Virus record (IMG/VR): IMGVR_UViG_3300023180_000261
Location: 1 to 30,801 of that record
Origin: a virus
DNA: 30,801 nucleotides
Strand: one strand, 5' to 3'
Numbering within the stretch: the first letter of the stretch is position 1; every line of letters begins with the position of its first letter. Position numbers and translations under genes: made by a program. This document shows positions 1,088 to 30,801 of this stretch, piece after piece. The notes below the pieces were generated by a model, which saw only the letters and a list, made by a program, of their open reading frames with translations, was not told where the DNA came from and did not search any database.

Positions 1088-2098
1088 CTAAATTTTGTGA
1101 GGGTTATCTGAAAAATAAAATTGTAAATCTTTCACTGCATCAGATAAGAATTCCTCAATTCTCCCTGTAAAATCCTCTTCGGTAGAGTAGTATTCATAGT
1201 AATCTGACTTACCATCATTGTTCTTCAAGCTCCAATGGTCCACTTGCCGTAAAATGTCAATCTTATTAAAAACAATTTTATTTACTGCGTTTAACTGGAC
1301 TGACCTTTTCAAGAAAGGCAAGTCAATCCAATTACACTGTCGCACTCTACCAGTTGTTGCTCCAAACTCCTGTCCCGCCTCCTGAATGTGCTGGAACACC
1401 TTGTTGTGTGGCGGCTGGAACTTCTTAGCGCCAACATAAGTCTCGTATGCCTTTGCTACTCCCCACACATCACGAATCGCATAGTGTGGGATTGCGTTTA
1501 GAAGCACTGAGGATGTCAGACAGTGGCTTGAAGTCACAAAAGGGTAGTCTCCCCAATCTATGTCCAACCCAAAGCCTTGAGCGCCCTCACAGAGGATTTT
1601 TACCTCACCGTGATTCCAGAACTCATCATGTAGGTCAATTAGGTAGGGCTTAAGCTCTTGAAAGTCTTTAGCGAGCTTTCCCGAACGGGAATACTTGTCT
1701 CTGTAGGCAGGGCCATTGCCACGCTTTGTGGTGCCAATCTTCTTGTCCTTGCCGTCTTCTTTCTTGTGGTCATCCGTGATTACATGACAGTTTTTAGCCA
1801 CATAAATAAGTCCCTTAGTATTGATTCCACCTGCCTCAAGCTCATCCAACTCTCGGAAAAACTGAGCAGGGTCAAGAACACAACCGTTCCCAATAATACT
1901 TTTAATCCCAAAGAAAACGCCCGCTGGAATGTGGTGAGTAATAAACTTCCTACCTTCATGAAAAATAGTGTGCCCAGCATTGCAACCGCCATTGAACCGT
2001 AAGACATGTGTATAATCTCCCGTTTTACAAAGATGGTGAGTGACTTTTCCCTTGCCCTCGTCACCATACTGAAGGCCGACAACTACATCAGCTATCAT
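1088..2098 (-). CDS. purA: Adenylosuccinate synthetase, short GTP-type (PurA)
   Basis: Adenylosuccinate synthetase joins IMP and aspartate using GTP, the first step from IMP to AMP. Visible motifs: LQYGDEGKGK with catalytic Asp13, NGGCNAGHTI with His43, IGTTKRGNGPAY (121-132), EGAQG, DYPFVTSSHC, the ATTGRVRQCNWID loop and NKID (278-281), a guanine-specificity motif. At 336 residues it is about 90 shorter than the usual bacterial enzyme and close to the archaeal/phage short form. That form includes PurZ, which makes 2-aminoadenine precursors, but PurZ replaces the catalytic Asp, which is kept here. AMP synthesis is therefore the best call. GGAGAAGGC precedes the ATG, which overlaps the upstream gene by 11 nt. 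Confidence 0.93.
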   Translation of the reverse strand: MIADVVVGLQYGDEGKGKVTHHLCKTGDYTHVLRFNGGCNAGHTIFHEGRKFITHHIPAGVFFGIKSIIGNGCVLDPAQFFRELDELEAGGINTKGLIYVAKNCHVITDDHKKEDGKDKKIGTTKRGNGPAYRDKYSRSGKLAKDFQELKPYLIDLHDEFWNHGEVKILCEGAQGFGLDIDWGDYPFVTSSHCLTSSVLLNAIPHYAIRDVWGVAKAYETYVGAKKFQPPHNKVFQHIQEAGQEFGATTGRVRQCNWIDLPFLKRSVQLNAVNKIVFNKIDILRQVDHWSLKNNDGKSDYYEYYSTEEDFTGRIEEFLSDAVKDLQFYFSDNPHKI

Positions 2099-22809: not shown

Positions 22810-22940
22810 ACTTTCTTAGGGATATCGGGGGGTTAGGGTTGGTTAGGGAACTGAGGGGTTTAGCTGGTTTGGTTAGGGGACTAAGGGAACGCCGTTAGAA
22901 GGCTTAAAAAGGGGGTTAACAGGTTGAAATTATTAGGTTA
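22711..22940 (+). repeat. Imperfect 50-bp duplication
   Basis: Copies at 22711-22760 and 22891-22940 both begin GCCGTTAGA, share a run of 5-6 G before GTTAAC/GGTAAC, and end ATTAGGTTA. Substitutions are scattered, suggesting an old duplication under some constraint. Confidence 0.75.
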
Positions 22941-23712: not shown

Positions 23713-23902
23713 TTGCGTCCTCCCAACTTTCCTTTACGTTATGCAGAGTTAGCTTGATGTTGCCAAGCTGGAAAACCCCAATCTTTTTGAGGCCTTCGAA
23801 GAAATCATAAGACGACTCACTACGTCTCGCAAGTAGGTACAATGATTCATCATTGTTGACCCATAGCGAAATCTCGCGTGATTCCCATTGATTATCTGTC
23901 AT
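23705..23902 (-). CDS. Small hypothetical protein (65 aa)
   Basis: A 65-residue acidic protein (MTDNQWESREISLWVNNDES) with strands and one helix, no recognised family. An AAGAGGTTAATAG site precedes the ATG, and the AATAATAACAAGAGG stretch upstream belongs to the repeated leader motif of this block. It overlaps the next gene by 8 nt, suggesting coupled translation. Confidence 0.65.
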   Translation of the reverse strand: MTDNQWESREISLWVNNDESLYLLARRSESSYDFFEGLKKIGVFQLGNIKLTLHNVKESWEDAND

Positions 23903-23925
23903 CTATTAACCTCTTGTTATTATTG

Positions 23926-24186
23926 TTATTTCCGCAAGTGCTTGTCGTGGCTATCCAAGTCCTTGTTCTTCAAGAACTTTTTGCCGTCCTTCGCAAAGTC
24001 CCAAACGTTTGAAACTTCGCGCAGTTGCGGCAAGAGCAATTCGTCAATGATTTCATCGTCTTCAAGCTCTTTAAGCTGCTGCCTAACGTTCCTGCGTAAC
24101 CGCCTGTTAGCATTAGCTTTATCGCTTTTGTCCGATGGGGCGGTAGTGATTGAAATGATTGGAGTTTTCTTTTTTGACCTCGCCAA
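23926..24186 (-). CDS. Small charged protein (86 aa), TTG start
   Basis: An 86-residue protein with a basic start (MARSKKKTPIISITTAPSDK), an Arg-rich helix (ANRRLRRNVRQQLKELEDDE) and a Lys-rich end. The start is TTG, supported by GGGAGG 7 nt upstream inside the repeated leader motif. No family is recognised. It may bind nucleic acid, judged only by charge. Confidence 0.65.
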   Translation of the reverse strand: MARSKKKTPIISITTAPSDKSDKANANRRLRRNVRQQLKELEDDEIIDELLLPQLREVSNVWDFAKDGKKFLKNKDLDSHDKHLRK

Positions 24187-24220
24187 AGTCTAACCTCCCG
24201 TTATTGTTAGCGATTCTATC

Positions 24221-24541
24221 CTATTCGATGCCCTTGATAGTGGGCAGCAAATCGAAGCGATCATACTCAAGATCCCTGAACGATTTCACGGGCTTGCGTG
24301 CTGCGGTAAAGCAGCGACCGGCTTTGACGTAAGCGAGCAATTCGCTGTCAGAAAGCTCCATAAAATCGGAGGGTTCGTCACGATCCGGCTGCTGCACGGC
24401 GAACGTCTCGTCTGGATCGCCCAAGCCCAACAGGTCGTTTTCATTGATGATTTTGTTCAACAGCTTGCGAATTGCGAAAACGTCAAACTTTGTCACCCAC
24501 ATTGTCCTATCGTTAAACTCTTGAAAAACAACAACTTTCAT
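24221..24541 (-). CDS. Hypothetical protein (106 aa)
   Basis: A 106-residue protein, acidic in its middle (LGLGDPDETFAVQQPDRDEP) with a helix ESDSELLAYVKAG-type segment and a basic patch (TAARKPVKSFRDLEYDRF). Unrecognised. GGGAGA lies about 10 nt before the ATG, a looser spacing than at its neighbours. A tRNA-like element occupies the gap between it and the upstream gene. Confidence 0.65.
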   Translation of the reverse strand: MKVVVFQEFNDRTMWVTKFDVFAIRKLLNKIINENDLLGLGDPDETFAVQQPDRDEPSDFMELSDSELLAYVKAGRCFTAARKPVKSFRDLEYDRFDLLPTIKGIE

Positions 24542-24619
24542 AGATTCTTTTTCTCCCTAACAAGTGCTGACCTATTGCGGTGTCAGCAACTCATTGAATT
24601 TATTGAATTGTTTGTGGAA

Positions 24620-24688
24620 CTGTGGAAAGGAATTGAACCTCTCAGTTTCCAAGGCAGCCAACCTTTCGAAACTATTACCATTTCACAG
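24620..24688 (-). ncRNA. tRNA-like element with T-arm (no D-arm)
   Basis: On the minus strand: CTGTG closing stem with CACAG, a long central hairpin (AGTTTC/GAAACT with inner AAGG/CCTT and loop TTGGCTG), then a T-arm AGAGG-TTCAATT-CCTTT containing the B-box-like GGTTCAATTCC. No normal D-arm forms. Just upstream, ACCGGG/CCCGGT (24707-24726) makes another strong hairpin. It lies between genes of the leftward block. A functional tRNA is unlikely; a processing signal or decayed tRNA is possible. Confidence 0.45.
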
Positions 24689-24769
24689 ATTCGGACAGTG
24701 GTATTGACACCGGGTTGTCCAGCCCGGTCTGCTGTGCTATAACCTCCCAAGATTATTAGCAAAGTTTGG

Positions 24770-24964
24770 CTATCCAGGCAGACTGCTAACTGCTTGATAT
24801 TTCACGCTTCCATCGTTATCGTCATAAAGCGCAACGATTTCGCCTGAGTCGATTAGCGTGATAAGTGCCTGAAATAACTCATTTTCTTCGAATCCCTGCG
24901 TCTGCTGCCAATCGCTGTAAGCGAGCGCAATCATTGAAATTTTCTCGTTATCGCTGATGTTCAC
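24770..24964 (-). CDS. Small acidic protein (64 aa), GTG start
   Basis: A 64-residue acidic helical protein (MNISDNEKISMIALAYSDWQ; LFQALITLIDSGEIVALYDD). The GTG start is supported by AAGAGGTTACA just upstream; this site overlaps the stop of the preceding 50-codon gene. No family recognised. Confidence 0.6.
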   Translation of the reverse strand: MNISDNEKISMIALAYSDWQQTQGFEENELFQALITLIDSGEIVALYDDNDGSVKYQAVSSLPG

Positions 24965-24973
24965 TGTAACCTC

Positions 24974-25126
24974 TTAATCTTGTTGAACTTTCTTGCGGCA
25001 AGCTAGCTTGCTGTTTTTCTTACGTTTATCGCCGTGATGCCCTTTTCCCTTGTGGAAACAAAGGCTTAGAGCGTAGGGGTTTCTGTGCTTGTGTAACCTC
25101 TTGTTTTTCTTACGTTTCTTTGCCAT
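24974..25126 (-). CDS. Very basic small protein (50 aa)
   Basis: A 50-residue protein of mostly Lys, Arg and His (MAKKRKKNKRLHKHRNPYAL; CFHKGKGHHGDKRKKNSK), a likely RNA- or DNA-binding peptide. GGAGGGTTAGGGTTCG precedes the ATG, and its GGTTCGATGGC runs through the start like a partial T-arm. The stop overlaps the ribosome site of the next gene. Composition resembles small phage RNA-binding proteins, but no family can be named. Confidence 0.6.
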   Translation of the reverse strand: MAKKRKKNKRLHKHRNPYALSLCFHKGKGHHGDKRKKNSKLACRKKVQQD

Positions 25127-25149
25127 CGAACCCTAACCCTCCGAGTTAA

Positions 25150-25248
25150 TTAGTCATCCAGCGGATCCAAGACTTCCCAAATGAATTCAAGGACATAACA
25201 GGCGACACCGAACAGAACCGGAATCGCGAAAACGCTAATGATTTCCAT
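25150..25248 (-). CDS. Tiny membrane protein (32 aa)
   Basis: A 32-residue single-pass peptide, MEIISVFAIPVLFGVACYVL then EFIWEVLDPLDD. The ATG shares bases with the upstream stop (TAATG), so it depends on coupling with the 69-residue gene. It resembles the 31-residue peptide at 25690 (shared E-I-x-x-I-P start of the hydrophobic core). Confidence 0.55.
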   Translation of the reverse strand: MEIISVFAIPVLFGVACYVLEFIWEVLDPLDD

Positions 25249-25457
25249 TACTTGTCCTCAGTCTGCTTCTTCAGAAACCAGACCACTTTCTTCAATGATT
25301 TGAACTGCTTAGGCGTCAGTGGGATTCCCGATTCAATTCGCTCATCTAGCGACTTGACGAAATCCGGTTGAAAATCAGGCACTTGCGGGATAAGCTCCTT
25401 TGCCTGTGAAATCCAACGCTTATGAGCGTCCAAGTATTTCATACCCTTATGTTCCAT
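25248..25457 (-). CDS. Small hypothetical protein (69 aa)
   Basis: A 69-residue helical basic protein (MEHKGMKYLDAHKRWISQAK; TPKQFKSLKKVVWFLKKQ). No family recognised. CAGGAGGTTAAGTC precedes the ATG and forms the 3' arm of a repeated hairpin (25463-25484). Its stop is fused to the start of the tiny membrane peptide. Confidence 0.65.
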   Translation of the reverse strand: MEHKGMKYLDAHKRWISQAKELIPQVPDFQPDFVKSLDERIESGIPLTPKQFKSLKKVVWFLKKQTEDK

Positions 25458-25462
25458 GACTT

Positions 25463-25484
25463 AACCTCCTGAAATGATTGAGTT
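25463..25484 (-). promoter_or_regulatory. Shine-Dalgarno hairpin, copy 1
   Basis: Minus strand: AACTC-AATCATTTCA-GGAGGTT, a small stem (AACTC with GAG(G)TT) whose 3' arm is the ribosome site of the 69-residue gene. Confidence 0.6.
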
Positions 25485-25662
25485 ATTTGAGAATCTTTTC
25501 CATAATCCAGACCGAATCGGAACCTTGCAGAATAACAAGGTTTTTCAGGCATCGTTCGGCATCCGAACGCAAGCTGAAAACATCAATGATTTCCAAGTCT
25601 TTGCCAGGGAGCTTCCGCCCCGTGCGCCTAACCACAAGATAAACCTTATGAAAATCGAGCAT
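25483..25662 (-). CDS. Small hypothetical protein (59 aa)
   Basis: A 59-residue protein just under usual length cut-offs: MLDFHKVYLVVRRTGRKLPG, DLEIIDVFSLRSDAERCLKN, ending WIMEKILK. A beta-hairpin followed by a helix is likely. The start lies 7 nt after GGAGG in a repeated hairpin. It is similar in layout to the 59-residue product at 26910 (KVYLVVRRTGRKL against RVILWRSGKRPL), suggesting distant paralogues. The opposite-strand frame here is a shadow. Confidence 0.68.
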   Translation of the reverse strand: MLDFHKVYLVVRRTGRKLPGKDLEIIDVFSLRSDAERCLKNLVILQGSDSVWIMEKILK

Positions 25663-25667
25663 GACTT

Positions 25668-25689
25668 AACCTCCTGAAATGATTGACTT
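25668..25689 (-). promoter_or_regulatory. Shine-Dalgarno hairpin, copy 2
   Basis: Minus strand: AGTC-AATCATTTCA-GGAGGTT before TAAGTCATG. The loop is identical to copies 1 and 3 and the ribosome site lies in the 3' arm. Confidence 0.6.
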
Positions 25690-25785
25690 TTAACCGAACA
25701 CCGAAACAACAAAACCGGCAAGTGTGCAACATGCCGGAATCACTACGAAAATCTCCAACCCTGGGAACTGGTGAATCTTCTTCAT
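25690..25785 (-). CDS. Tiny membrane protein (31 aa)
   Basis: A 31-residue peptide, MKKIHQFPGLEIFVVIPACC then TLAGFVVSVFG, with one membrane helix and paired Cys. The ribosome site is weak (TAGGTAAGCAAAAC). It shares an EI-hydrophobic-IP pattern with the 32-residue peptide at 25150. Confidence 0.5.
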   Translation of the reverse strand: MKKIHQFPGLEIFVVIPACCTLAGFVVSVFG

Positions 25786-25821
25786 GTTTTGCTTACCTAT
25801 TGTTTGAGTAAAATCGAGGAC

Positions 25822-26007
25822 TTACCAGTTTGACTGAAAGTCCTTGCAGATCGCACGGTTAAACCGTCGAATGGCTTTGTTGCTACGTCGCTGAAAAGAC
25901 TTGCGAATTCCAGGGTTTAGAAGCCGGGAATCGCAATCTCGCATGTACTTGAGATCATTGGTGATCTTATGGGCCTGAGCCATTGTGCTCATCTGGCGCT
26001 TTGTCAT
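25822..26007 (-). CDS. Small basic protein (61 aa)
   Basis: The start is set at ATG 26007, since GGAGG lies 8 nt upstream; an upstream ATG at 26043 has no ribosome site. The 61-residue product is basic and helical (MTKRQMSTMAQAHKITNDLK; FQRRSNKAIRRFNRAICKDF). Nucleic-acid binding is plausible from charge alone. The repeated hairpin (copy 3) precedes it. Confidence 0.65.
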   Translation of the reverse strand: MTKRQMSTMAQAHKITNDLKYMRDCDSRLLNPGIRKSFQRRSNKAIRRFNRAICKDFQSNW

Positions 26008-26013
26008 TGCGCT

Positions 26014-26035
26014 AACCTCCTGAAATGATTGAGTT
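26014..26035 (-). promoter_or_regulatory. Shine-Dalgarno hairpin, copy 3
   Basis: Minus strand: AACTC-AATCATTTCA-GGAGGTT, identical to copy 1 over 22 nt, before TAGCGCAATG. Confidence 0.6.
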
Positions 26036-26429
26036 ATCGCCAATACTTAAGCGGGAATCGTGCAACCCCTTGAAACTCTGTTGTTTTCTCGTCTTTCGTT
26101 AGAGGGCACTCAGTTTCCAAATACCACACCCAATTCCGTTGGAAAATCGCGGGGTTGCCCTTTGCCCATCCGTAAAGCAGCGCATTGATTCGGCTTTTCG
26201 TCGTTACCGTTTCGAAGCCGCCGCTTTTCACAGTGATTTTATTGGCTTGCGCGTCAATCTGACAAATCTCGGTATTCCAAAGGAAAACGCTAACTTTGCC
26301 GTTGCCGTCGCTAACTACGCGATCTCGCTTGGTTAGCTTGCGATTGAACGCCTTGCCCTCCAAACCCTCCAGAATCATTGCAGAAATCCTGTTATCAATA
26401 ACCCGTGAATGATAAATCCGCATACCCAT
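26034..26429 (-). CDS. Hypothetical protein (131 aa)
   Basis: A 131-residue basic protein of alternating strands (RIYHSRVIDNRISAMILEGL; DGNGKVSVFLWNTEICQID), with Trp/Tyr-rich segments (WAKGNPAIFQRNWVWYLETE). It has no known motif. AGAGGTTTCG precedes the ATG. Its stop lies at the edge of hairpin copy 3. Confidence 0.65.
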   Translation of the reverse strand: MGMRIYHSRVIDNRISAMILEGLEGKAFNRKLTKRDRVVSDGNGKVSVFLWNTEICQIDAQANKITVKSGGFETVTTKSRINALLYGWAKGNPAIFQRNWVWYLETECPLTKDEKTTEFQGVARFPLKYWR

Positions 26430-26475
26430 CGAAACCTCTTGTTTTTGTTGTGTTTTTTGTCTGATTGCTTGTCGG

Positions 26476-26679
26476 CTAACCCAGCGAAATCACTGAGTTT
26501 TTCCAGTAACCAGCGTTCTTCAGACGATTCGTCAATCGTTTCGCCTCTTTAAAGCAGTAGTCCACAAGCATCTGATTTCGCAGTTCTTTTGGCTGGCAGG
26601 CTTCCAAGTAAGCCATTTCACTGAGCTTTTGTGCCTGCTGGGCAACCTCGCGGTATGTAAGGGTTTTTCGGTAGTTCAT
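26476..26679 (-). CDS. Small hypothetical protein (67 aa)
   Basis: A 67-residue helical protein (MNYRKTLTYREVAQQAQKLS; EAKRLTNRLKNAGYWKNSV). Its MNYR start is shared with the 59-residue protein at 26910. AAGGAATAAGC precedes the ATG. No family recognised. Confidence 0.62.
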   Translation of the reverse strand: MNYRKTLTYREVAQQAQKLSEMAYLEACQPKELRNQMLVDYCFKEAKRLTNRLKNAGYWKNSVISLG

Positions 26680-26731
26680 GCTTATTCCTTGAAAAGAGTA
26701 GTGATTTTAATGGGTTGCAATGATCCTCGGC

Positions 26732-26889
26732 GGATCCTTGTTTCGGGTCATTATTCCGAACTCCCCGATTCTATTGAAGAATCTGATTATCAATTTAACA
26801 TCTAACCCCCCGTTATCGGAGGATCTTTGTTTCGGGTCACTATTGGTCCGAACTCCCCGATTCTATTGAAGAATCTGTTTATCAATTTA
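26732..26889 (-). repeat. Tandem 66-69 bp repeat with hairpin and micro-ORFs
   Basis: Copies at 26732-26797 and 26821-26889 differ at a few bases. Each contains GATTC-TATTGAA-GAATC (a 5-bp stem) and, on the minus strand, GGGGAG followed by a start codon and the peptide TRNKDPP: ATG at 26751 (14 codons) and GTG at 26840 (12 codons). A TAACCCCCCGTTATCG segment recurs beside each copy. Confidence 0.75.
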
Positions 26890-26909
26890 TTAAATGGTTA
26901 GGGCGCTGC

Positions 26910-27089
26910 CTAACCCCCCGTTATCGCAGGGTTGCGCCCCAGACGCAACACCTTGATTTCCTTCAGCTTTACGCCACTGTGGCGTGCAGCGAATTCCTTA
27001 CGGAAATCATAGGCTTGCACGCGACTCGGAAGCGTAGTGAGGCGCAGCGGACGCTTGCCGGAACGCCATAGAATCACTCGGTAATTCAT
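26910..27089 (-). CDS. Small basic protein (59 aa)
   Basis: A 59-residue protein, MNYRVILWRSGKRPLRLTTL, AYDFRKEFAARHSGVKLKEI, ending PAITGG. It is beta then helix, and basic. GAGGTCAGAA precedes the ATG. Its last codons (ATA ACG GGG GGT TAG) are part of the TAACCCCCCGTTAT word repeated at 26803, so the tail is shared with a micro-ORF there. A tRNA-like element follows upstream. Confidence 0.66.
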   Translation of the reverse strand: MNYRVILWRSGKRPLRLTTLPSRVQAYDFRKEFAARHSGVKLKEIKVLRLGRNPAITGG

Positions 27090-27118
27090 TTCTGACCTCG
27101 CTTTCTGATTGTTTTTAG

Positions 27119-27167
27119 GTAGTTAGGCGGGAATCGAACCCGCCCAAATGGCAACCATGCTAACTAC
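27119..27167 (-). ncRNA. Minimal tRNA-like element (acceptor stem plus T-arm)
   Basis: On the minus strand an 8-bp perfect stem GTAGTTAG/CTAACTAC encloses a small hairpin ATGG-TTG-CCAT and a perfect T-arm GGCGGG-TTCGATT-CCCGCC with the B-box GGTTCGATTCC. D-arm and anticodon arm are absent, so it cannot decode. It lies between the 332-residue gene's stop and the next gene. It could be a processing signal for RNase P/Z or a decayed tRNA. Confidence 0.6.
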
Positions 27168-27185
27168 TTGAAAAGATTGAACTAA

Positions 27186-28181
27186 TTAGAGCTGCGTGAC
27201 GATGTTCGCCATTTCCTCACTGATTCCGCTAAGGTCGGCCATAGCAGCCAACTTAGCGTCTTCCTTAGCCTTTCGGCTGTCCGACGACTTTGCCTTCGAT
27301 TCCGCAGGCTTAGCCGGCTTGGCAGCGGTCAGCTTGTCCAACTTGCTGGAAAGCTTGACGATTTCGTTGGACTGAAAATCCACCTTATCTTTCAGCAGGT
27401 TGCAAAGCTGCCGAGTGCGGATAATCTCATTCTGCATTTTCGTAAGCATTTCAAGGACTTCCGACTGATCGTTGGAAGTCTCACCAGCAGGCAAAGCCTT
27501 AACGATTTCGGCCACTTGCGTGGCAACAATCGCGGCTACCTCGTCAGCCGAAACCCCCTTGGATTTCGCGGACTTGCGAGGAGCCTTGACCTTCTCAGTC
27601 TTTTCAGCAGGCTCGCGGACAACCTTGAACCCCTCGGAATCCTTCGCCTTTTCCAGCGTCGAACCCTCAGCAGTTTCGGGAGCTTCCACGATCATCCAAA
27701 AAGGCGAAGGCTTTCCACGGGTTAGACGGATCAGCTTGCCATCATCCGACACTCGGAACTTCTTGATTTTACTGGACTTCTTGGCCACTCGCTTACCTCC
27801 TGATTTCGCGACCTTATCGGACGCCTTGTCGAAATCGTCAGAATCATTGACGAAATGAACGATGCGCTCTGCAATCGCCTGCTTGTCCTCGCAAACCTTG
27901 TAAATCATTCCGCTTTTCACGACCAGACCCTTGCCAGCCGCCAAGTCGGCGGAATCCTTGGCACAATCAAGCAGCTTGTTGCGCCCCTTGTAACCAAGCG
28001 GAATCGCAAGGGAAGTGAAAGCCTTTTTGCGTGCGATGCCCATCGGCGCGAGCCCACGCTCGGAAGTAGCCGAAATCACACCGGAAACCAGCGGCAGATG
28101 CTTCTTGGAGAGCGTAACCTTGTGCTTTCCCTCAGAAAACTCGACAGACGACGGAAAAACCTTGACTGAAACCTTACCCAT
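27186..28181 (-). CDS. Lys/Ala-rich protein with coiled coil (331 aa)
   Basis: The second ATG (28181) is preferred, as AGAGGTT stands at better spacing than for ATG 28184. The N-terminal 140 residues form a mixed domain (VFPSSVEFSEGKHKVTLSKK; AFTSLAIPLGYKGRNKLLDC). The middle is Lys/Ala/Pro-rich and probably disordered (EKVKAPRKSAKSKGVSADE). Residues about 240-290 form a coiled coil (LTKMQNEIIRTRQLCNLLKD). The end is again Lys/Ala-rich. It is the largest product of the tiny-gene block and is GC-richer than late genes. It may bind nucleic acid; I do not recognise a family. Confidence 0.75.
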   Translation of the reverse strand: MGKVSVKVFPSSVEFSEGKHKVTLSKKHLPLVSGVISATSERGLAPMGIARKKAFTSLAIPLGYKGRNKLLDCAKDSADLAAGKGLVVKSGMIYKVCEDKQAIAERIVHFVNDSDDFDKASDKVAKSGGKRVAKKSSKIKKFRVSDDGKLIRLTRGKPSPFWMIVEAPETAEGSTLEKAKDSEGFKVVREPAEKTEKVKAPRKSAKSKGVSADEVAAIVATQVAEIVKALPAGETSNDQSEVLEMLTKMQNEIIRTRQLCNLLKDKVDFQSNEIVKLSSKLDKLTAAKPAKPAESKAKSSDSRKAKEDAKLAAMADLSGISEEMANIVTQL

Positions 28182-28251
28182 CATAACCTCTCAAAATTAT
28201 TGGACTTTTTGTCCAGTGAAACGATGAAGGAACTTTCTTCAACGATGTTGG

Positions 28252-28311
28252 CTGGTTATCAGGGAATCGAACCCTAACCCAGCCGGAGCTAGGCAGACCA
28301 TCTGTAACCAG
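28252..28311 (-). ncRNA. tRNA-like element with T-arm
   Basis: On the minus strand CTGGTTA and TAACCAG form a 7-bp stem around AGGG-TTCGATT-CCCT (B-box GGTTCGATTCC), a hairpin CCTAGC-TCCG-GCTGGG and AGA-TGG-TCT. An anticodon arm is missing. An alternative long hairpin (GGCTGG/CCAGCC) competes with the closing stem. It lies upstream of the 331-residue gene in its leader region. Confidence 0.5.
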
Positions 28312-28405
28312 TTGTAATCACAAGGCTTTTTTCCCAAGTCCGTCGCGCTACACCTTTGGAATCGACCTTATCACAATGATTCCAAACCCTTACGCGGGAA
28401 CTCAT

Positions 28406-28579
28406 CTTGTCTTGTTGTAAAATCGGGTAGTTGCGCTCCACCGCAACCCCGTGAAAAGACAAGGGGACTAAAATGTCAAAGAAACCGGGCACTTGGCGCT
28501 CAGGTCGCTGGCCAGGGCCAAGGACGGGCACACCGTCGCGAGGCACCCCCTAATAGTGCAGGACCCGTGCCAGCCTGAG
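28406..28579. ncRNA. Structured GC-rich element, candidate RNA
   Basis: Two nested structures lie in an otherwise AT-rich stretch. CTTGTCTT (28406) pairs with AAGACAAG (28456-28463) around the hairpin GTTGCG-CTCCA-C-CGCAAC (28430-28447). Then CTCAGG (28499) plus CTGGC (28508) pair with GCCAG plus CCTGAG (28569-28579), enclosing GACGG/CCGTC and GCAC/GTGC hairpins. The strand is uncertain. A 26-codon plus-strand frame (ATG 28474, after AAGGGGA) lies between them. No known RNA family is recognised. Confidence 0.4.
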
Positions 28580-28598
28580 GCCAGAGCCGGAAAGAAAG

Positions 28599-28976
28599 TT
28601 GTAAGTCTATGAGATTATTCAGAAAAAAAACTTTGTAAAGAATTGTGAAGATGGAACTTGCTGATTTTATTGATTAAATTTTGTTGAATAAAGTTAGGTA
28701 GTTACAAGAGGCGGCATTTTGGGGCAGCAGCGAAGGTGGCAAGGTTTGCACAGTTTCAGCGCCAAGGTCAAAATGGTGAATGATTTTAGCAAGTTCTGCT
28801 ATGACAGAGGTGTCGCATACTGCGCAATGTGTTCTTAGTTTTATGTGCTTGTAATTATTACACTTTTTTTAAGCTCCTGGCTGGTTGATAGTTGTCAAGT
28901 AAATACCAAAAGTGTCTACCTTGTAACCTATTGAAATCATTAAAGAAAAAAAATCTGTGAAGATTTGTGAAGATCG
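28599..28976 (+). repeat. 56-bp direct duplication with TTGTGAAGAT boxes
   Basis: 28599-28654 and 28921-28976 align: both start TTGTAA, contain AGAAAAAAAA, and end with tandem 10-mers (TTTGTAAAGA then TTGTGAAGAT in the first; CTGTGAAGAT then TTGTGAAGAT in the second). The second copy ends 7 nt before a sigma54-type promoter. Confidence 0.75.
28719..28838 (+). CDS. Possible small plus-strand gene (39 aa), TTG start
   Basis: A 39-codon frame, MGQQRRWQGLHSFSAKVKMV then NDFSKFCYDRGVAYCAMCS, with AGAGG 7 nt before a TTG codon. It would be the only plus-strand gene in this region and lacks a clear promoter. Four Cys/Tyr-rich end residues give no motif. It could be chance. Confidence 0.3.
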   Translation: MGQQRRWQGLHSFSAKVKMVNDFSKFCYDRGVAYCAMCS

Positions 28977-28983
28977 CCCAAGT

Positions 28984-28999
28984 TGGCACGCTATTTGCA
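28984..28999 (+). promoter_or_regulatory. Perfect sigma54-type promoter
   Basis: CAAGTTGGCACGCTATTTGC (28979-28998) followed by ATAA matches the full RpoN consensus: GG at -24 (28985-28986), GC at -12 (28997-28998), 10 nt between. The transcript would start near 29010 and run rightwards into the hairpin array. Tandem TTGTGAAGAT boxes lie just upstream. Confidence 0.65.
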
Positions 29000-29077
29000 T
29001 AAGGCGAAAGTGCAATGATTTCAATTACTTGCCGCGCTGTTGACACTTATTCAGTTCGTCCTACCTTGTATCTGTAA

Positions 29078-29319
29078 CCGGGCGAAATCATTTACCCGGC
29101 AACTAGACAACTGTTAAGTTGTAAGTCCCCGGAATCGTTCGGCTTTTGTAATCGGTGTAACCTACTGATTTGATTAGGCTTTTAAGTCCCCGGAATCGTT
29201 CAGCTTTTGTCCGGGGCGCAACCGACTGATTTGATTAGGCTTTTAAAGCACCTGTAATCATTCAGTTTTTGTAGCTTCTTGAAATCATTGAGTTTTCCTA
29301 ACTCTCTGAAATTATTGAG
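29078..29319 (-). repeat. Tandem array of about eight small hairpins
   Basis: On the minus strand, units at 29304, 29275, 29252, 29222, 29190, 29161, 29129 and 29078 (left ends) share a loop core near AAYNATTNC and a short stem that changes together on both arms: CTC/GAG, CTG/CAG, CCG/CGG, CCTA/TAGG, CCGGG/CCCGG. They resemble the Shine-Dalgarno hairpins of the tiny genes but have no following start codons. Confidence 0.65.
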
Positions 29320-29504
29320 AAGACAAAATCGTATTCTTGATTATACCAATAATAAAATAATTTGTCTTCATAGTCGAAAAACTGAAGACAAAACCAACTT
29401 TCCACACTTTCGACACAATAGGCATAACCCTTCCCCCCAGCAAAGTTGTCTTCTAACACAACCAAGTCACCGACTTTCGGCTTGATTTGTGGGCTCATAA
29501 ACAT
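29298..29504 (-). CDS. Small SH3/KOW-like protein (68 aa), paralogue 1
   Basis: A 68-residue acidic, aromatic protein. KPKVGDLVVLEDNFAGGKGY opens a small SH3/KOW-type barrel, followed by VESVESWFCLQFFDYEDKLF. It is the first (leftmost) of five related genes. GGGAGATTTAG precedes the ATG, which overlaps the upstream paralogue by 38 nt. The stop codon lies inside the first unit of the hairpin array. Confidence 0.68.
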   Translation of the reverse strand: MFMSPQIKPKVGDLVVLEDNFAGGKGYAYCVESVESWFCLQFFDYEDKLFYYWYNQEYDFVFSIISES

Positions 29505-29670
29505 CTAAATCTCCCTCGAACACCATTCTTATTTTTCCAGTAGTCAAAATCCTGACTCGGAAAATGCCCAAGGTGCCGTCGTGGGAAACCTTTTCAATAC
29601 AACAAACATCATCTTTCCACAAATCAGTTCGAGACGCCCCAACATACCTAACCAAATCACCTACTTCCAT
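29467..29670 (-). CDS. Small SH3/KOW-like protein (67 aa), paralogue 2
   Basis: A 67-residue protein, MEVGDLVRYVGASRTDLWKD, CCIEKVSHDGTLGIFRVRIL, then a VFEGDLDVYEP ending: the strand order of a small SH3/KOW barrel. ATG 29670 is chosen over an adjacent upstream TTG. The site is GGGGGTCTTG, in a sequence (GGGTAGTAGGGGG) also seen in the repeat region. Confidence 0.7.
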   Translation of the reverse strand: MEVGDLVRYVGASRTDLWKDDVCCIEKVSHDGTLGIFRVRILTTGKIRMVFEGDLDVYEPTNQAESR

Positions 29671-29682
29671 CAAGACCCCCTA

Positions 29683-29919
29683 CTACCCTACTACTGGGGT
29701 GGTACTCCACTGGTGGATAACCTCTGGTACTTGTTCATCTTTAATAACTCGGTAGCGTGATTTGTAATCGTAAAGAGTTGAACCGAATCCTTTACCTGTG
29801 GTGCTATAAACCACTGTAAACTTTGGGTCTTTGTCTTGGTCAAAACCTGTAACGATTCCAATAACTTTGCCCAAGTTAATAACTGGTGCCTTAGAGACAA
29901 TGTTATCACCTACTTTCAC
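29683..29919 (-). CDS. Small SH3/KOW-like protein (78 aa), GTG start, paralogue 3
   Basis: A 78-residue protein, MKVGDNIVSKAPVINLGKVI then GIVTGFDQDKDPKFTVVYST, with the VGD opening and Gly-x-Val second strand of its neighbours. The GTG start shares bases with the upstream TGA (GTGA), with AAGGAG 5 nt ahead. Translation is probably coupled through the whole cluster. Confidence 0.7.
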   Translation of the reverse strand: MKVGDNIVSKAPVINLGKVIGIVTGFDQDKDPKFTVVYSTTGKGFGSTLYDYKSRYRVIKDEQVPEVIHQWSTTPVVG

Positions 29920-30137
29920 TTTAACTCCTTCAAAATGTCGCCTCTTGCCACACCTCTTAATCCAGACTTAAATTCTTCAACGAGATAAGTACCTTGTTCC
30001 ATGTAGATTTGTTTATAGTCTAAACCGACCGCTTGGGTTATTTGCTCTTCGTTTAACTGACCAACAATAAAGCCTTTTCTTTCTTCGACTTCGGCACTAA
30101 CCTCGTAATAAACCAAGTCCCCAACTTCCCAAGTCAT
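29916..30137 (-). CDS. Small SH3/KOW-like protein (73 aa), paralogue 4
   Basis: A 73-residue protein, MTWEVGDLVYYEVSAEVEER, KGFIVGQLNEEQITQAVGLD, ending LRGVARGDILKELK. The barrel-like opening matches the others, with a longer helical insert. The ATG overlaps the TGA of the 52-residue gene (ATGA). Confidence 0.7.
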   Translation of the reverse strand: MTWEVGDLVYYEVSAEVEERKGFIVGQLNEEQITQAVGLDYKQIYMEQGTYLVEEFKSGLRGVARGDILKELK

Positions 30138-30292
30138 TTAACTAACTCCAGTTCATCTAAATCGGCATACCAACTTTCCCCGCTTCCAAGGTGCATAACA
30201 ACTGAAGATGGAATGTGAACTCTCATACAAAATTCAACAATAACCCCAATTTCGCCAGTTGATTTTACTTTTACAAGGTCGCCAACTTTCAT
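30134..30292 (-). CDS. Small SH3/KOW-like protein (52 aa), paralogue 5
   Basis: A 52-residue protein, MKVGDLVKVKSTGEIGVIVE, RVHIPSSVVMHLGSGESWYA, DLDELELVK: the most compact member, close to a complete KOW/SH3 unit. GGCGGGATGAA precedes the ATG. Its TGA overlaps the next start. It is too short for many gene-calling thresholds. Confidence 0.7.
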   Translation of the reverse strand: MKVGDLVKVKSTGEIGVIVEFCMRVHIPSSVVMHLGSGESWYADLDELELVK

Positions 30293-30304
30293 TTCATCCC
30301 GCCT

Positions 30305-30673
30305 TCACCAGCAAATACCGGGACTTGGAATGTAGAGTTGGTCTTCTTCATAATAACCCATAACCTCGCGATCTTCTGGGTCTTCTCCAATCCTAATAAA
30401 CCTAACAAAATCTTCGCCACCTTCATTATCATTTACGGCATCTTCAAAAAACTTTGTAATCTTTCTGACTTCTTCAAAGTCTTCATACCATTTGATGCTA
30501 TTAAGATTAACAACAATGTCGCCTTCATTGTAAAAGCCAAACCGGATGCCCTCTTTGTAAGTTTCATTATACTTAACCAAATCGCGGACTTTCTCGCTTG
30601 CTGCCATAACTGCCAGAAACTTATCAACTAATGGTGGACCAATAGCAAAAACCACTTCACTTCTGTAGCCCAT
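30305..30673 (-). CDS. MGYRS-type phage protein (122 aa)
   Basis: The start is ATG 30673: TTTCAGGAGGTAAGAAA precedes it, and the product then begins MGYRSEVVFAIGPPLVDKFL, a start I recall from a family of phage and bacterial small proteins of unknown function. An upstream frame to 30799 adds 42 residues without a ribosome site. The 122-residue protein continues GFYNEGDIVVNLNSIKWYED and FVRFIRIGEDPEDREVMGYY, an acidic alpha/beta fold. It lies upstream of the SH3-like cluster, 12 nt from the next gene, and carries a variant of the repeated leader hairpin. Confidence 0.75.
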   Translation of the reverse strand: MGYRSEVVFAIGPPLVDKFLAVMAASEKVRDLVKYNETYKEGIRFGFYNEGDIVVNLNSIKWYEDFEEVRKITKFFEDAVNDNEGGEDFVRFIRIGEDPEDREVMGYYEEDQLYIPSPGICW

Positions 30674-30679
30674 TTTCTT

Positions 30680-30700
30680 ACCTCCTGAAACCTTTGAGTT
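30680..30700 (-). promoter_or_regulatory. Shine-Dalgarno hairpin, variant copy
   Basis: Minus strand: AACTC-AAAGGTTTCA-GGAGGT before AAGAAAATG. The stem and ribosome site match copies 1-3, while three loop bases differ. Confidence 0.5.
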
Positions 30701-30801
30701 TTCTTTCCTCACACCAAAACTGGATGGCGGGGTTGATAATCGCTGAACAACAAACCCGTTTATGCTGACCGGGATTTTCTTTTGGGTCTTCTTGGTCAAT
30801 A

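Follow-up and report, generated by a model that had tools for sequence, protein, structure and literature searches.

A repeated leader in a block of small genes

In this work we analysed IMGVR_UViG_3300023180_000261, an entire IMG/VR virus record of 30,801 bases that we call the window, and in it a sequence of about 24 nucleotides (nt) which precedes about half of the small genes in one fast-changing block. This leader, AAACTCAAYNATTTCARGAGGTTA, is common to nine minus-strand genes with starts from 23902 to 30673 and has a Shine-Dalgarno sequence (SD) at its end. The window is probably a piece of a larger genome, that of a large uncultivated phage. It encodes a 981-amino-acid protein made up of DUF6267 and a cytidylyltransferase, and a search with this protein resulted in nine related contigs with 38-100% identity. 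By the same protein, Kyanoviridae cyanomyoviruses come closest among named phages, with an identity of about 26%, and no named phage was found that matches the small-gene block by DNA. The relatives G003 (85 kb), G006 (141 kb) and G005 (33 kb) share part of the block, and each of these contigs breaks off within it. Such contig ends would be expected if repeats disturb assembly, and the gene content there may be under-recorded.

Aligning the window leaders with seven leaders from G003 and G006 gives the consensus AAACTCAATAATTTCAAGAGGTTA, in which the SD GAGGTTA lies downstream of a conserved A/U-rich stretch, AAACTCAAYNATTTCA. In the genes E, G, H and N the leader takes up approximately the whole 23-27 nt gap between the upstream stop codon and the start codon. 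The leader-bearing genes are functionally unrelated, and none of the 25 window genes outside the block is preceded by the leader.

To avoid circularity, the copies were located with a profile built from six G003 and G006 leaders only. Both strands of the window were scanned, and the threshold was set at the 95% point of the maximum score in shuffled sequence. The profile finds 14 matches above this threshold, every one of them minus-strand and located from 24.1 to 30.7 kb. Nine stand at gene starts (one of these, the leader of the 28181 gene, was counted manually), two are in non-coding DNA and three are within coding sequence, at 25117, 24120 and 29741. We do not base copy number on an early unsupervised refinement of the motif, which drifted to about 100 degenerate sites. 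The individual copies, and the gene that anchors the junction comparison below, are as follows.

25462..25485, minus strand: leader of gene H (25457), TAACTCAATCATTTCAGGAGGTTA; 26.0 bits with the relatives-only profile
25667..25690, minus strand: leader of gene G (25662), AAAGTCAATCATTTCAGGAGGTTA; relatives-only profile
26013..26036, minus strand: leader of gene E (26007); profile match
23907..23930, minus strand: leader of gene N (23902); profile match
24967..24990, minus strand: leader of gene K (24964, GTG start); profile match
26432..26455, minus strand: leader of gene D (26429, Kyano_Gp96 family); profile match; L037 has the orthologous leader at 1669-1692
28184..28207, minus strand: leader of gene A (ATG at 28181); in the orthologous leader, L037 266-289, the motif is kept and the flanks are not
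30678..30701, minus strand: leader of gene 30673; 19.1 bits
24191..24214, minus strand: leader of gene M (24186, TTG start); 17.7 bits
29097..29321, minus strand: non-coding array of looser motif copies, spaced by 27, 27, 26, 36, 25, 36 and 47 nt
28924..28947, minus strand: non-coding copy that contains the widespread 18-mer without mismatch, AATGATTTCAATAGGTTA; top match of the array-derived model described below
26477..26500, minus strand: motif copy over the 3' end of gene C, AAACTCAGTGATTTCGCTGGGTTA; motif and model searches
22917..22940, minus strand: non-coding copy downstream of the gene block; repeat and model searches
24974..25126, minus strand: gene J, encoding a small basic protein; conserved anchor of the shuffled junction, from genome comparison

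The extra copies in non-coding DNA, at 29.3-28.9 kb and 23.5-22.9 kb, show that the element is more than a start-site mark. No sigma-70-like site coincides with the leaders, under a sigma-70-like consensus from which the phage's own promoter types may differ. With no promoter found at the leaders, we rejected their reading as promoter cassettes.

The conservation of the leader extends beyond the SD. When GAGG is used as the anchor and only the 16 nt upstream of it are scored, in a leave-one-out test, the ten window leaders reach z=10.5. The value is 6.2 when one of an identical trio is kept, and 4.1 without the four strongest leaders, so SD conservation alone is insufficient to explain the leader. 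These results agree with a sequence-only reading of the window, which had described near-identical leaders at 25463, 25668 and 26014, looser ones at 23902, 24186, 24964, 26429 and 28181, and the placement of the SD before the start codons. The copy at 30680, which it had grouped with the near-identical ones, is present and belongs with the looser ones. In the relatives, too, the leader is present at orthologous gene starts.

The same reading had proposed that the SD is built into the stem of a shared hairpin, and here our results differ. The CTC/GAG stem put forward there consists of three pairs; its folding energy (dG) of -0.6 to -0.9 kcal/mol is slightly worse than that of dinucleotide shuffles (z +0.3 to +0.8), and at the 25662 leader the fold does not form. 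In an alignment of 16 leaders, 75.0% of cells pair compared with 73.5% after shuffling, a level that 132 of 500 shuffles reach, and the middle pair of the stem is broken in seven of the 16. On these folding energies and pair counts, with no covariation, we rejected a structured operator. The leader is essentially unstructured, a repeated sequence rather than a hairpin. No known RNA family reaches its Rfam gathering score in the window, and the low-score Rfam matches were dismissed as chance or T-arm matches. One sequence does therefore mark many genes of the block, as had been claimed; a shared structure does not. Of the two outcomes that were said to count jointly against the claim, the lack of covariation is observed, whereas the lack of any excess over the SD is not.

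Gene turnover and a wider motif

Gene J (25126-24974) and the leader downstream of it, AAGTTCAACAAGATTAAGAGGTTACAG, are identical between the window and G003 and nearly identical in G006. The gene that follows is a different one in each case: K in the window, N in G003 and a third gene in G006. At this junction the change falls after the motif and not inside it. Gene N is conserved from its ATG onward in the window, G003 and G006, where it stands behind three different leaders of the same consensus. Within the window, the leaders of G (25662) and H (25457) are 97% identical over 30 nt, and the identity stops exactly at the ATG; the genes behind them are unrelated to each other. Across three genomes, this comparison is suggestive of the leader being a seam of gene turnover, with neighbours exchanged exactly there.

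The window leader closely matches an intergenic motif, AAAnYCAATGATTTCAATRGGTTA, that is widespread in phages and bacteria. Exact copies of the 18-mer AATGATTTCAAKAGGTTA of this motif number at least 118 in GTDB genomes, mostly in non-coding DNA; simple counting would predict about 15. Of 80 inspected GTDB loci, about 10 have it directly after the 3' end of a tRNA. An integrase is directly downstream at two of these tRNA-adjacent loci, and a detectable relative of one such integrase is found at 3 of the 118 GTDB loci among the matches listed. In viral sequences, the tandem pair of ATGATTTCANNNNGTTA and ATGATTTCA with a gap of 4-34 occurs in 40 stretches, some of which are near-copies of one another so that the independent cases are fewer; a reversed-pattern control gave none. 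The array copies carry a conserved left flank AAAnYCA, of the same kind as the AAACTCA of the leader. Some of the array-bearing contigs are large myoviruses. The arrays are often found between divergent genes with promoter-like sequence nearby, and in these other phages there is essentially one array per contig, away from gene starts. The array spacings show no clear phasing. A motif copy with an inverted partner also lies within the annotated attP of Rhizobium phage 16-3, although the match alone is weak (E=4). For the letters of the motif we found nothing in the literature searched. Overall, its settings in unrelated phages and bacteria are tandem arrays near promoters, positions after tRNA 3' ends and repeat elements; it was located in the viral contigs L183-L221, L012 and L019, in the GTDB loci L058-L175 and at 28924-28947 of the window.

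We built a second model from 55 array copies of unrelated viral contigs, none of them from the window, and softened in it the core that had served as the search pattern. In the window, 12 matches of this model surpass the 95% point of the maximum in shuffled sequence, and none lies below position 22,940. Four leaders are among them, as are the non-coding copies at 28947, 29295 and 22940. Scored alone, outside the SD and the core, the left flanks of the nine leaders are significant under this array-derived model (p<5e-5). Together, the matches and the flank score indicate that the leaders belong to the wider motif. Pairing between the flanks of 201 distinct motif copies is marginal, with 0.507 against 0.457 for L-2/R3 (z 2.6) and other pairs near zero. 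As the flanks hardly covary, we rejected a hairpin here too, and the widespread motif is likewise a sequence motif.

Possible roles and known counterparts

The explanation we favour, to which we give an even chance, is that the repeat is a start-associated cassette for ribosome binding and translation, a variant of the widespread motif, which doubles as a recombination seam. The position of the leader suggests that, as RNA, its SD and the A/U-rich stretch acting as an upstream enhancer would recruit ribosomes. As DNA, the near-alike copies would offer a seam at which small genes are exchanged, gained or lost by phage recombination, which is how the changed junctions might have arisen. Each newly arrived gene would still get a working ribosome-binding site from the leader. 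This lineage may have multiplied a widespread intergenic motif whose 3' half now doubles as the SD. Elsewhere, this motif is found as arrays close to promoters or next to attachment-like sites. Several observations weigh against this explanation. A role in translation leaves the gene-less copies at 28.9-29.3 kb and the copies in coding sequence unexplained, and about half of the block genes have no leader. In the window and G003 the own leader of J partly travels with J, which places junctions on either side of a leader. The independent block contexts are three (window, G003 and G006; G005 nearly duplicates G006), so the seam claim is based on few junctions. In addition, the single arrays away from gene starts in other phages suggest a DNA-binding function.

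This last point leads to the main rival, which we regard as possible but clearly less probable: by analogy with stoperators, a DNA-binding protein of the phage or the host might recognise the motif as a double-stranded site, with operator arrays at promoters, scattered copies of one orientation in short intergenic gaps, and the position before genes being secondary. Such a site accounts better for the arrays beside promoter-like sequences between divergent genes of unrelated contigs, and for the non-coding arrays and the strong orientation bias in the window. It would not need the motif to be fused to the SD with the correct spacing to the start codon, as is seen in nine genes. Furthermore, the array spacings are not clearly phased, and family searches identified no repressor or regulator in the block. 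This lack of a reader also bears on an unstructured RNA site over the SD that a phage repressor would bind in the manner of T4 RegA sites, which we think unlikely. Conservation beyond the SD at the starts of functionally unrelated genes would be in keeping with a translational operator of this kind, and the sequence-only reading had indeed expected a shared RNA-binding regulator, perhaps one of the basic small proteins of the block. We find no evidence for one. A search that is positive in the controls T4 and S-WAM1 did not detect RegA (PF01818) in some 460 kb of the virus and its relatives, although the records are fragmentary and this absence proves little; RegB was not found either, in a search without a positive control. 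The small block proteins, including the basic ones, have no match above the cut-off to a known RNA- or DNA-binding family. The missing hairpin and covariation, the non-coding copies and the location of the arrays in other phages, apart from start codons, also argue against an operator on RNA.

The positions after tRNA 3' ends, twice with an integrase directly downstream, the copy in the attP of phage 16-3 and the gene junctions that change at the leader raise the question whether the motif is an attachment or arm-type site of a tyrosine recombinase, with the block as a cassette array rearranged in trans. We consider this quite unlikely. An integrase was not found in the window or relatives, where the records are fragmentary and the control genomes gave hits; relatives of the GTDB integrase are rare at the listed loci, the J junction changes past the motif, and the 16-3 match is weak in isolation. 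Finally, the leader could be nothing more than an ordinary strong SD in an A/T-rich context. The GAGGT at the end of the motif is complementary to the 3' end of 16S rRNA, as this would predict. The conservation of the upstream 16 nt after controls (z 4-10), the absence of such leaders from the other 25 genes of the record and the matches of an independently derived model to the same leaders make it very improbable. A broader claim than our favoured explanation we put forward as tentative: the intergenic motif might be a previously undescribed recognition or recombination motif of many unrelated phages and bacterial mobile DNA, which here was multiplied before most genes of a variable block and, with its 3' half as the SD, forms a seam system for gene cassettes.

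To our knowledge, phages with start-associated repeats have been described only in a few actinobacteriophage clusters, and no function is known for these repeats. The closest known kind are the Start Associated Sequences (SAS) of Cluster K mycobacteriophages, SD-containing repeats upstream of start codons to which no function has been assigned (PMC3203893); motifs similar to SAS are found in Cluster EF Microbacterium phages (PMC7302621). Like SAS, the leader is a short asymmetric repeat with an SD directly upstream of start codons, has one orientation and is confined to a non-structural region, as the profile matches show. In both, conservation exceeds the pairing with rRNA and the upstream stop codon sometimes lies within the repeat. 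The leader differs in being a 24 nt A/T-rich sequence that does not fit the 13 bp SAS consensus GGGATAGGAGCCC, in belonging to an unrelated phage group and in having copies in non-coding arrays. It is also kin to a motif widespread outside this phage, whereas SAS are almost absent from host genomes. A subset of SAS has the 17-bp inverted repeats called ESAS upstream, and our repeat search found no such arms beside the leaders. By this comparison, the leader would work like SAS yet stand outside the SAS family in its sequence and its lack of inverted repeats. It is an independent case of a start-associated repeat in a different kind of phage, one that adds direct signs that adjacent genes change at such a repeat, as well as a connection to a motif that is far over-represented in the intergenic DNA of viruses and bacteria. 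Should a protein or recombinase read the motif, identifying it would account for the arrays as well as the leaders.

Other known systems share some of these features. The promoter early stem-loop (PeSL) cassettes were reportedly described by Arbiol in 2010 and Comeau in 2014. They are presented as a repeated intergenic promoter and stem-loop of T4-type phages (PMC4503421). The leader is similar as a repeated intergenic element of a hypervariable small-gene region with putative seams of gene shuffling (in three genomes only), and dissimilar in that it contains an SD while no promoter or stem-loop was found. The stoperators of L5 and other Cluster A mycobacteriophages (PMC9283540), which a repressor binds to halt transcription, are likewise many asymmetric intergenic copies with one orientation relative to transcription; the leader differs by its fixed position before the start codon, its merging with the SD and the fact that no repressor was found. 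T4 RegA sites include the AUG and lack a clear shared sequence, and RegB prefers GGAGRAYARAA (PMC3014915). The leader resembles these targets in lying unstructured in the translation initiation regions of many genes, some with GGAG, and differs in that neither protein was found in these fragmentary records. The T4-type clamp loader was likewise not found in the available, fragmentary sequence of the relatives, and we dropped the label 'T4-like' for the phage.

Other features of the window

Two tRNA-like elements lie on the minus strand at 27167-27116 and 28310-28248, with a looser one at 24690-24615 and another in L037 at about 38-90. They have an acceptor stem and a T-arm, and no cloverleaf accepted by ARAGORN. 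An objective search accepts two of them, where shuffled block sequence would be expected to yield 0.017, and they are possibly degenerate or miniature tRNAs. Outside the block, 1088-2098 (minus strand) holds an adenylosuccinate synthetase-like gene (PF00709, E=5e-84), which could be a purine-biosynthesis gene or linked to modified DNA.

A small gene at 23422-23240 (minus strand) is conserved in G003 and G006, and in the window ATA replaces the ATG of the relatives. There is no other usual start codon near and the frame is otherwise open, which points to either a non-standard start or a recent start loss. At 26889-26750 (minus strand), and in L037 at 1320-1390, there are tandemly duplicated tiny frames of about 12-14 codons that contain NKDPP and have a leader-like AATAGAATCGGGGAGTTCGG; G003 has a similar mini-frame. 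In the interior of gene A, at 27815-27787 (minus strand), AAATCAGGAGGTAAGCGAGTG is conserved in G003 and combines an in-frame SD with GTG, a possible internal start that would yield a shorter product.

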